Assembly (NCBI GenBank): GCA_947462105.1 | Contig: CANHNJ010000010.1 | Location: 1-64,000, forward strand | From: Alphaproteobacteria bacterium | Lineage (GTDB): Bacteria; Pseudomonadota; Alphaproteobacteria; Micropepsales; Micropepsaceae | Length of the DNA: 64,000 bases | Reading direction: 5' to 3' | In this document: positions 1-59,894 of the stretch, in pieces | Layout of the letters: every line of letters begins with the position of its first letter | Position numbering within the stretch: position 1 is the first letter of the stretch | The notes under the pieces: model-generated | Told to the model about the DNA's origin: nothing | Databases searched by the model: none | Seen by the model: only the letters and a program-made list of their open reading frames with translations | Made by a program: the position numbers and the translations under genes

Positions 1-147
1 CACAACATGCAGCAGGCGTCGCGCGCATCCGACTACACCGCCTTCATGTATCTGGGCGAACTGATCGAATATGGCGCGACGGAGAAGATCTTCACCGCCC
101 CCGACAACAAGCGGACAGAACAGTACATCACCGGCCGCTTCGGCTGA
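1..147 (+). CDS. pstB: Phosphate ABC transporter ATP-binding protein PstB, C-terminal end (partial)
   Basis: The window opens inside this gene; 48 codons and a TGA stop remain. The fragment starts [15 protein letters not shown] and carries LGELIEYG and a QYITGRFG end, the hallmark tail of PstB. PstB is the cytoplasmic ATPase of the PstSCAB high-affinity phosphate importer, and the H at residue 1 here is the switch histidine after the Walker B region. The usual partner phoU does not follow on this strand; the next gene is convergent. The stop codon lies inside the first helix of a repeated hairpin element (144-249). Confidence 0.93.
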
Positions 148-249
148 GCGCGCGTCTTTTGCCCTCTGGCGGTGTCACGCGTCGCTCATGGGCTTAGTGC
201 CCACATCGCTCCTCGGTACTGGCCAGCGGCCAAAATCCGCAGCGCTCAG
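144..249 (+). repeat. Structured intergenic element, copy 1 of 3
   Basis: This is a roughly 106-nt unit with nested helices. An outer helix pairs CTGAGCGC (144-151) with GCGCTCAG (242-249). A second pairs 157-170 (TTTTGCCCTCTGGC) with 222-235 (GCCAGCGGCCAAAA), 12 of 14 positions. An inner hairpin pairs TGGGC (189-193) with GCCCA (199-203) around loop TTAGT. Two other copies, at 46947 and 56347, keep the pairing while changing the bases. The pstB stop codon is part of the outer helix. No match to a named element is claimed. Confidence 0.75.
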
Positions 250-46466: not shown

Positions 46467-47058
46467 CGCACAACAGGCTCCCTGGACGGCGGCATACTAG
46501 ATTTCAGTGCCGGGCTGAGCCCCCCTCTATTCAGGGGGCATCCGACGCTTCACCTGCCATTTTCACAACCAATAGTTGTATTATTTTTAACCGCCACATC
46601 CCCCAGGGCGCGCTTATGACAGGGCAAGGCGGCCTTTCCCGGCGTCTTCACACCTGGCCCTGTACAAAGTTGCACACGCCATCCAACCCGGGATGTTCCG
46701 CACAAATTCCTCATACCATTTGGTTTTCGCCCCTGCGCGGCCTTGCCACGCTTGACGGCATCGAAGCGGAACCGTCACTCTTCGCGTATGCAGCAAGAGG
46801 TTTTTGCCAATACCGAGGACTTCGGCGGCCCGGACATCATCGCCGCGCCCTGCAAGGCCTCCCGTCCCGGCCAGGACGCGCCCTATGCCCGCCGCGACGC
46901 CGACGCCGGGACGGCTGTATCACCAGCAACAAAAGCAACAACAATAAGGCGCTTTCTTTTGCGCCCTGAGTTCGTCGCGCCTTAGCTCATGTACTATTTG
47001 TACACATCGCTCGGCGCCCCTGCTCAGGCCGCAAAATCGACGCGCCTGGAAGAATGAG
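46467..47058. other. 592-nt region without a confident gene
   Basis: It holds a GCCCCCT/AGGGGGC hairpin (about 46519-46539), a short ACAAC/GTTGT inverted repeat followed by a T-rich run (46565-46590), and the structured repeat copy 2 (46947-47047). One short frame from ATG 46788 (MQQEVFANTEDFGGPDIIAAP...) runs to 46985 across the repeat, has no ribosome site and is not recognisable. I see no reliable coding signal. Confidence 0.6.
46947..47047 (+). repeat. Structured intergenic element, copy 2 of 3
   Basis: The outer helix is AGGCGC/GCGCCT (46947-46952 with 47042-47047). The second helix is TTTTGCGCCCTGAG (46957-46970) with CTCAGGCCGCAAAA (47023-47036), 13 of 14 paired. The third is GCGCC (46977-46981) with GGCGC (47013-47017). 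The inner hairpin is TGTAC/GTACA (46990-46994 with 47000-47004) around TATTT. It ends 11 nt before the ATG of the gene at 47059. Confidence 0.78.
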
Positions 47059-55301: not shown

Positions 55302-56347
55302 ATGACGCTCTATGGCGATCCGCAGGCTTCGGCGCCGCCCAAAGGCGTGCGCACGCTCGGCCTTGTCGGCGCGGCACTGCTCTGTGCCCTGATGGGCACG
55401 GCGGCCACCATTACGCTGTTGGGCGGCGCGGAGCAGGCTTCGGTCCGCATCCCGCTCACGCCGCCGGTGGCCCATGATCAGCCCGCGTCTGCCATTCGCG
55501 CCGAAGCGACACCCGACACGCCGACGCCCGCCGTCACGGGCATCCTGCATGCGGGCCGCGCCCTCATCGCCGATCCGGCGCTGGTCGAGAATTCGCCCCT
55601 GGGGCCCCTGCCGCGCATTGCCGATGACGGGCGCAAGCCCATGACCGCCTATGCCGCCCCTGCGGTGAGTGGAAATTGCGGATCGCCATCGTCGTGACCG
55701 GCCTGGGCCTTTCCGCCCGGGCGACACAGGCCGCCATCACCGGCCTGCCAGCCTCCGTGACGGTGGGCCTGCTGCCCTATGCGTCGGATGCGCCGTGCTG
55801 GCTGTCGGCGGCGCGCGCCGCCGGGCATGAAGTCGTGCTGCAGGTACCGATGGAGCCGTTCGATTTCCCCGACAGCGATCCCGGCCCGCACACGCTGCGC
55901 GCGGGCAGCATGAGCTCCGCCAATGCCGAGCGCCTGAACTGGGCGCTGACCCGCTTCACCGGCTATGCCGGCGTGACCAATCTTCTGGGCGACCGCTTCC
56001 TGACGGATTCCGAAGCGCTGGCCCCGGTGCTCACCACCCTGTCGCGGCGCGGCCTGTATTTCTACGATGCCGGCGGCACCTCACGTTCCGTCGTGCCCAG
56101 CGTGGCGGGCAGCCTGGGCGCGCCCTTTGCGCAAGGCGCCGCCAGCCTCGACACCATCCAGAGCGCGCTGGAAATCGACCGCCGCCTGGCCGAACTGGAA
56201 AACACCGCCCGCGCCAATGGCAGCGCAGTGGGAACCGCGTTCCTCTATCCGGTCTCCGTCGAACGCATCGCGCTGTGGGCCAAGTCGCTTCAGTCGCGGG
56301 GGTTTGTTCTCGTCCCGGTTTCAGCGATAGTCAGCGCGCCACAATAG
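55302..56347 (+). pseudogene. Divergent polysaccharide deacetylase family protein, frameshifted
   Basis: The first frame (55302-55697) has a membrane anchor (TLGLVGAALLCALMGTAATITLL), a Pro-rich linker and the family's lead-in NSPLGPLPRIADDGRKPMTAYA. It then drifts into SGNCGSPSS and stops. The second frame, joined near 55671, reads KLRIAIVVTGLGLSARATQ and continues through the whole deacetylase-like domain (YDAGGTSRSVV, GTAFLYPVSVERI) to VSAIVSAPQ. Restoring one base gives a normal protein of about 348 residues. Family members (YibQ-like) often follow envC-ctpA, as here. No slippery sequence is seen. Confidence 0.82.
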
Positions 56348-56445
56348 GCGCGGTTCTTTTGCGTCGTGGGTTCGTCGCGCGTGCTCACGTGCTATTAGCA
56401 CGCTCCGCTCGACGCTCCTGCCCACGCCACAAAATTCCTCGCGCC
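56347..56445 (+). repeat. Structured intergenic element, copy 3 of 3
   Basis: The outer helix is GGCGC/GCGCC (56347-56351 with 56441-56445). The second is TTTTGCGTCGTGGG (56357-56370) with CCCACGCCACAAAA (56421-56434), 12 of 14 paired. A short helix is GCGT (56379-56382) with ACGC (56412-56415). The inner hairpin is CGTGC/GCACG (56388-56392 with 56398-56402) around TATTA. It starts at the deacetylase stop codon and ends 17 nt before the rppH ATG, filling the spacer. Confidence 0.78.
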
Positions 56446-56462
56446 CCAATAGCGAGATAAGC

Positions 56463-56930
56463 ATGTCCGAACTTCCGTACCGTCCCTGCGTCGGCATCAT
56501 GCTGATCAATGACGAAGGCTGGGTCTTTGTCGGCAAGCGCATCGACCAGACGGTGGAAGGCTGGCAGATGCCGCAGGGCGGCATCGATGATGACGAAACG
56601 CCGCGCCAGGCCGCCCTGCGTGAATTGCGGGAAGAAACCGGCACCGACAAGGCCGAGATCATCGGCGAACTGCCTGACTGGATCGCCTATGACCTGCCCG
56701 AACATCTGGTCGGGATCGCCTTTCATGGCAAGTATCGCGGCCAGAAACAGAAATGGTTCCTGATGCGCTTCACCGGCCATGACACCGATGTCAGCCTGGG
56801 CTTCGAACCGGAATTCTCGGGCTGGAAATGGGTGCCGCTGGACCAGGTCGCGGCCTTGATCGTGCCGTTCAAGCGGCCAAGCTATGAAGCCGTGATCGAA
56901 GGATTCCGATCTCTGGTGACCTCCAGATAA
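56463..56930 (+). CDS. rppH: RNA 5'-pyrophosphohydrolase
   Basis: A 155-residue Nudix hydrolase that removes pyrophosphate from mRNA 5' ends to start decay. YRPCVGIMLIND at the start and the Nudix box GGIDDDETPRQAALRELREETG (about 38-59) are complete. rppH commonly follows ctpA and the deacetylase in alphaproteobacteria. Its 115-nt leader is almost entirely element copy 3. Confidence 0.95.
   Translation: MSELPYRPCVGIMLINDEGWVFVGKRIDQTVEGWQMPQGGIDDDETPRQAALRELREETGTDKAEIIGELPDWIAYDLPEHLVGIAFHGKYRGQKQKWFLMRFTGHDTDVSLGFEPEFSGWKWVPLDQVAALIVPFKRPSYEAVIEGFRSLVTSR

Positions 56931-59817: not shown

Positions 59818-59894
<77 letters not shown>

Follow-up and report, generated by a model that had tools for sequence, protein, structure and literature searches.

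The space between a divergent polysaccharide deacetylase gene and the RNA pyrophosphohydrolase gene rppH of an alphaproteobacterium (assembly GCA_947462105.1; Alphaproteobacteria; Micropepsales; Micropepsaceae) is occupied by a hairpin, and the question raised by this locus is what kind of element such a hairpin represents and how it came to lie at the end of a gene. The locus is part of the window, that is, the stretch of 64,000 nt analysed here, which corresponds to positions 1-64,000 of contig CANHNJ010000010.1. A preliminary description of this DNA had placed three copies of a structured element at 144-249, 46947-47047 and 56347-56445, each folding as nested helices; all three were found there as a hairpin repeat of approximately 104 bp (Table 1), and the nested fold was confirmed for each by comparison with shuffled sequences on both strands. 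The inner stems that had been proposed (TGGGC/GCCCA, TGTAC/GTACA and CGTGC/GCACG) were recovered together with the outer stems, while the supposed 14-nt stem running from TTTTG to CAAAA requires amendment, as the TTTTG/CAAAA pairing is real and the stem is interrupted by mismatches.

Table 1. Positions in the window of the three hairpin copies, of the structural parts of copy 3 and of the genes on either side of it.
Feature	Position	Strand	Remarks
Hairpin copy 1	144..249	+	left end holds TGA stop (145-147) of pstB fragment; right end is TCAG
Hairpin copy 2	46945..47049	+	left end without long-frame stop (L025)
Hairpin copy 3	56345..56448	+	TAG stop of upstream gene at 56345-56347 (L019)
Copy 3, GGCGC, left arm of outer stem	56347..56351	+	partner at 56441-56445
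Copy 3, second stem, TTTTG arm	56357..56361	+	partner CAAAA at 56430-56434
Copy 3, TTCGTC, left side of conserved internal loop	56371..56376	+	
Copy 3, CTCCTG, right side of conserved internal loop	56415..56420	+	
Copy 3, conserved GCTCA adjoining inner stem	56383..56387	+	
Copy 3, inner hairpin CGTGC-loop-GCACG	56388..56402	+	
Copy 3, conserved CNNCGC (CTCCGC), facing GCTCA	56403..56408	+	
Divergent polysaccharide deacetylase gene, upstream of copy 3	55676..56347	+	Pfam PF04748, E 7.5e-58
RNA pyrophosphohydrolase gene rppH, downstream of copy 3	56463..56930	+	NCBIfam NF001938, E 8.7e-64

The z-scores of folding for copies 1, 2 and 3 were -4.1, -6.8 and -4.1 on the plus strand and -6.1, -7.1 and -6.3 on the minus strand, with none of 200 shuffles, or in one case a single one of 200, folding as well as the real copy on either strand; the antisense strand was the more stable by about 8 kcal/mol in all three. 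Between the helices lie two unpaired internal loops that are absent from the preliminary description, one in which TTCGTC faces CTCCTG and another beside the inner stem in which TCA faces CNNC, and both are among the most conserved letters of the hairpin. The 48 amino acids of PstB encoded upstream of copy 1 match positions 201-248 of the 248 of TIGR00972, and as the profile is matched to its last position copy 1 does not truncate that gene. An intrinsic terminator was considered and rejected, as the left arm carries the T-run and the right arm the A-run, which is the wrong way round, and no T-run comes after the hairpin in the consensus.

The three copies in the window belong to a much larger set. 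With copy 2 as a blastn query, 18 places were matched in the genome at E <= 10, while a covariance model built from 13 copies, a search for which the preliminary description had named tens of copies as support, identified 24 distinct places in the 2.17-Mb genome at E < 0.001, of which 21 had E < 1e-10; three antisense matches that duplicated such places had been removed. The absence of further copies, which would have refuted the preliminary description, was thus not observed. Some of these copies are truncated. Two (L038 and L043, on contigs C11 and C6) have by eye an additional hairpin in the left strand, next to the inner stem, and could represent a subfamily; two half-copies (L046 and L048), considered as the ends of an autonomous element, were rejected as such because by eye they resemble short deletion derivatives.

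The model also reached well beyond this genome, matching 33 of 69 genomes of the genus (E <= 1e-6), at least 53 of 385 genomes of the class and at least 66 of 398 of the phylum (both E <= 0.001), 49 of the latter being assigned to other classes; the class and phylum searches scored the best 9-10 candidates per genome, and copy numbers from these are lower bounds. An exact-pattern scan of named genomes produced 52 stretches, all from metagenome-assembled genomes, with 49 bearing titles that specify Alphaproteobacteria or a taxon within it and three Proteobacteria only. Inspection by eye covered 27 loci of the class, 17 from the phylum search (three of these from the same class) and 40 further stretches. 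Inverted pairs of the hairpin with their left ends meeting, an arrangement in which the right ends would face the flanking genes, were seen at eight loci in six genomes of other families. At two loci from genomes of other classes (L273 and L278) the hairpin is enclosed by a terminal inverted repeat that is long and almost perfect, starts GGGCCTGTT and has TA at both ends, and an autonomous version may exist in these genomes. In a series of high-GC alphaproteobacterial loci (L175, L177-L180, L188, L202-L215, L219-L221 and L241) the hairpin is embedded in a longer repeat, whose conserved segment to the right of the hairpin ends at approximately GCTCTAG and can provide a frame on the opposite strand with its TAG stop. 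Blastn gave no match to the hairpin in plasmids (five queries) or in phages (one query).

That no known family could be named for the repeat, as originally stated, was upheld by searches of Rfam. Across the whole window at gathering scores no family covered a hairpin copy, and at permissive E-values neither the 401 bases surrounding copy 3 nor 26 other loci gave a credible hairpin match, the sole match over a copy, besides an edge overlap with suhB, being a chance-level one at L175 (29.2 bits against a cut-off of 137). The only feature of the window to reach a gathering score was a tRNA gene on the minus strand at 59821-59894 (64.4 bits).

In the repeat family the fold is kept by paired changes. 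The genus alignment was assembled from 97 loci, namely 21 of the genome itself, 24 of genus genomes and 52 metagenome-assembled-genome stretches, some of which repeat genus genomes and all of which were presumed to belong to the genus; these loci yielded 104 matches and 95 distinct rows. In this alignment, which was fitted to the model and whose rows are related to one another, 23 of the 27 pairs have changed on both sides as compared to 12.0 in column shuffles, 96.1% of cells are paired as compared to 81.8% when shuffled and 29.5-48.5% when partners are slid, and 367 cells are doubly changed as compared to 107 in column shuffles. One-sided standard changes account for just 18 cells, and about 100 of 2561 cells are unpaired. 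Relatedness and model fit were addressed with a structure-blind alignment of 91 distinct copies and a tree-based null (our own script after R-scape, with the FastTree tree and the substitutions per branch retained in 200 null alignments), against which E < 0.05 was reached by 12 of 5050 column pairs, comprising eight helix pairs and four that link subtype positions around the inner loop. Four antisense self-matches were kept in the 95-row count and were omitted from the tree-based null and from the counts of placement, mirrored stops and G.T and A.C pairs given below. Seven of eight possible pair combinations occur in the inner stem and four of four in the third stem, and as nearly all combinations are present the pairs of a stem change individually and not as blocks.

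A wider alignment of 82 rows, in which some antisense and partner matches are included and where fitting favours the model's own letters, gave 91.4% of cells paired as compared to 56.5% in shuffles, and the doubly changed cells numbered 723 of 2182 as compared to 206 in shuffles; two-sided changes affected all 27 pairs, a figure equalled by 51 of 500 shuffles and hence not special. The columns conserved at 85% or above are GT facing CCT, and GC-T facing C--CGC, and of these letters GC/GC forms a helix of two pairs, all others belonging to loops (seven low-scoring rows retained in the 82-row statistics were dropped from these letter counts and from those of pair types). Beyond the genus, therefore, the letters that are kept lie in or beside the two internal loops while the stems covary, and this combination favours recognition of the fold, either in RNA or in single-stranded DNA. 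The covariation claimed in the preliminary description is accordingly significant with many copies, both in the 95-row shuffles and for the eight helix pairs of the tree-based null. Its further step, that covariation in three copies implies selection, does not hold, as templated repair between the arms of a palindrome also yields matched changes.

Within the genus the hairpin is placed with its loop-defined left end towards the upstream gene and on its stop codon. At 72 of the 90 loci with enough upstream sequence a long upstream frame (at least 120 codons; some of these frames may be spurious) has its stop no more than 12 nt from the left end, and for 66 of these 72 the offset is between -3 and +1; eight shifted control positions gave such a stop at just 1-5 of 87-90 loci. 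When one copy was counted per orthologous site (15 orthologous groups), 56 of 70 left ends were still at a long-frame stop. The right end has such a stop at 25 of 88 loci. Where both flanks could be read (85 loci), 48 had a stop on the left only, 20 on both sides and four on the right only, the corresponding numbers with one copy per orthologous site being 38, 16 and four (67 loci). The stops at the left end are TAG in 42 cases, TAA in 17 and TGA in 13 (n = 72). By our own gene calls only 40 of the 196 TA dinucleotides outside coding sequence in the window are in stop codons, so a plain preference for TA does not explain this placement. The right end is furthermore the exact complement of the stop triplet at 25 of 68 loci, orthologous copies included, as compared to 12.4 in shuffles (none of 10000 was as high), the mirrored ends being TGA/TCA in 6 of 12, TAG/CTA in 17 of 41 and TAA/TTA in 2 of 15.

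The sense orientation relative to the upstream gene favours either a role in RNA or a polar mechanism of insertion. Outside the genus the stop-codon rule is not evident: among 31 loci a long-frame stop lies within 12 nt of the left end in four and of the right end in six. One copy of the genome (L034:1501-1669, contig C18) starts in the T-run that ends a match to the suhB (mmgR) sRNA (64.6 bits), and a copy with a similar upstream flank is found in another genome (L104). These two loci suggest that transcript ends lacking a stop codon may be targets too.

The site between the deacetylase and rppH genes exists in occupied and empty versions. Among the best 30 of 64 matching genus genomes, all of which were fetched, 29 sites were readable, and of these nine are filled (one of them, in G081, by a degenerate copy), one is decayed (G070) and 19 are empty; two fetched loci were left unparsed by the automatic reading of states, one of which (G030) was read as empty. 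Where filled, the hairpin sits at the stop codon of the deacetylase gene, and where empty a short spacer only is present. The genome closest by RppH among these best 30 of 64 (G088, 81% identity) has an empty site. On a protein tree of 27 rows, from which G079 was left out and where the decayed site was counted as empty, the state changes at least seven times, a count that cannot separate gain from loss; some empty sites may be deletion scars, and GCGC-type letters at several of them resemble such scars. At other orthologous sites different species carry by eye different subtypes, which fits recurrent insertion or replacement.

The enzyme that would move such a repeat was sought by profile searches for Y1_Tnp, DDE_3, DUF4096, RVT_1 and IS110, all of which were absent from the genome at E <= 1e-5. 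In the 28 element-rich genus genomes, defined by six or more copies in the genus search, these were found in 2, 0, 3, 4 and 4 genomes, respectively, as compared to 16, 18, 24, 17 and 17 of the other 41, a comparison among 69 genomes that genome size may confound; all five are missing from 16 of the 28. Element-rich genomes are in general poor in these mobile-enzyme families, and most genomes that do encode them have few or no copies. Helpers of the Y1, IS630, IS5/IS427, reverse transcriptase and IS110 types, being absent from the genome and rarer in element-rich genomes, were rejected, and none of the five tested families is the helper in a simple sense.

Several explanations have to be weighed against these observations. 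A cis-acting structure at the 3' end of mRNAs, starting at the stop codon and protecting or marking the end of the transcript while selection on the RNA keeps the pairs, would account for the sense orientation and the near-zero distance to the stop codon, for fold z-scores of -4 to -7 and for the copy that overlaps the end of the suhB match, together with its counterpart of similar upstream flank. The wobble pairs that such a structure might be expected to tolerate point both ways: in the wide set (1754 of 2003 cells Watson-Crick) G.T exceeds A.C by 78 to 37, or by 60 to 34 among 1930 cells if one weak U-G consensus pair is omitted, whereas in the genus set without this pair (2363 cells, 2254 Watson-Crick) G.T is the rarer with 19 against 38, and with it becomes the commoner (99 of 2454, A.C 38). 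As the ratio hinges on the set and on a single pair, it decides nothing on RNA wobble. The lesser stability of the sense strand in all three window copies, the predominance of empty and decayed rppH sites (19 and one of the 29 readable, among the best 30 of 64) and the absence of an orientation rule outside the genus argue against this explanation, and we regard it as rather unlikely. The matched changes could alternatively be mutational, arising when replication switches template and the sequence of one palindrome arm is copied into the opposite arm. The mirroring of the left stop triplet by the right end is what such copying would produce, as is the large excess of two-sided over one-sided changes with few cells left unpaired; yet unrestrained copying between arms would erase the unpaired loops, which are among the most conserved letters, the stem pairs vary in nearly all combinations and not in blocks, and both the copy number and the placement would be left unexplained. 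This account is in our view unlikely.

The remaining alternatives invoke established modes of transposition. For a classical miniature inverted-repeat element (MITE) with a TA target duplication, mobilised by an IS630 or IS5/IS427 transposase, one could cite the 17 of 68 loci with TAG on the left and CTA on the right, and the two hairpins (L273 and L278) enclosed by a long terminal inverted repeat whose ends both carry TA. The terminal stem sequences nevertheless differ between copies, DDE_3 occurs in none and DUF4096 in three of the 28 element-rich genomes, and TGA provides 13 of the 72 stops; empty rppH sites exist with which a TA duplication might be read, but TA is self-complementary, some ends are TGA/TCA and scars confuse the reading. 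Such an origin is very unlikely. A repetitive extragenic palindrome (REP) moved by a Y1 transposase (RAYT, TnpA-REP) appears more improbable still: the imperfect hairpin with conserved irregularities, the placement at gene 3' ends and the inverted pairs are as in REPs, whereas Y1_Tnp is missing from the genome and from 26 of the 28 element-rich genomes, the GTAG tag is absent and the length is several times that of a REP.

Taken together, the data point to a real, fold-conserved and widely spread repeat family that is apparently undescribed. We consider that it is probably a non-autonomous, dispersed, REP-like hairpin without a GTAG or CGTC tag, recognised by its fold and tolerated or used at the 3' ends of genes. 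A protein would recognise the folded strand through the internal loops, such that the letters of the stems can drift while still pairing, and an enzyme provided in trans would insert copies at or beside gene ends. At these positions the copies would be tolerated and may in addition act as structures at the 3' end of mRNAs, and deletion between the arms would remove copies, leaving short GCGC-type scars. Transposition, the mechanism of spread and any benefit are inferred. Several observations stand against this REP-like reading: none of the five mobile-enzyme families tested was found in the genome as a mobiliser, the terminal stem sequence varies, which is unusual for the end of a transposon, and the stop-codon rule is not evident outside the genus. 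The orientation bias moreover needs a cause, such as selection on transcripts or strand-polar insertion. A bolder version, in which these are phylum-wide mobile hairpins known by fold and loop letters, whose polar insertion is steered to gene ends by transcription or translation (for example by stop codons or transcript ends) via a hairpin-acting enzyme outside the five families, is distinctly improbable in our estimation.

Whereas sequence is what usually defines repeats of this size, the present family is defined by a fold and two internal loops, and the covariance model follows it from one uncultured alphaproteobacterial lineage into many families and other classes. Some ninety aligned natural variants in close relatives, together with occupied and empty versions of one site, constitute a resource, and the stop-codon rule is testable at the bench. 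For CGTC-type and similar REPs, which have no known transposase, the question of how they move also becomes more approachable. A literature search that covered few subscription journals, and text without figures, found no paper naming this repeat.

Among the known repeats with which the hairpin may be compared, RUP, Correia/NEMIS and similar TA-flanked MITEs are palindromic, approximately 100 bp long and have TA at their ends, with conserved terminal repeats and a helper of the IS630 type. The hairpin, in contrast, has variable ends, the GGCGCG type being the commonest and not universal, and no such helper was found. Integron attC sites are recognised as a folded single strand through unpaired bases while the sequence of their stems is variable; the hairpin differs from these in being dispersed at gene ends. 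Integron integrases are named in PMC8266576. The Rickettsia palindromic elements, also alphaproteobacterial, are noted for insertion inside reading frames in Di Nocera 2013 (PMC3733652), and by that description are set apart from a hairpin located at gene ends.

The closest resemblance is to REPs. In GTAG REPs and BIMEs with TnpA-REP the hairpin is imperfect, and in E. coli its mismatches are important when the folded single strand is recognised (PMC8266576); the termini of GTAG REPs often supply a TAG stop (PMC3733652). The hairpin resembles these in that the irregularities of its stems are kept, and differs in its greater length, the lack of a GTAG tag and the absence of a Y1 transposase from the genome. 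The CGTC-tagged REPs are palindromic, multicopy and mainly alphaproteobacterial repeats near the 3' ends of open reading frames, with inverted dimers common and a transposase not known, and measure 20-40 bp with stems of 8-9 bp, an unpaired CGTC at one terminus and a CCA tail (PMC3733652). Host range, multiple copies, placement at gene 3' ends, inverted dimers and the want of a known transposase are shared with the hairpin, which on a comparison by description only is unlike them in its approximately 104 bp, its two internal loops and its freely covarying stems. In contrast to both REP super-families its ends are paired and often comprise a stop codon, no terminal tag is present and the CGTC-like letters are internal. 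The preliminary description had regarded a match to a known REP family as contrary to its view, and the outcome lies in between, in that the repeat is best called REP-like while lacking the tags by which the described super-families are defined; as neither tag nor size fits, it is filed as REP-like and not as a member of the REPs.
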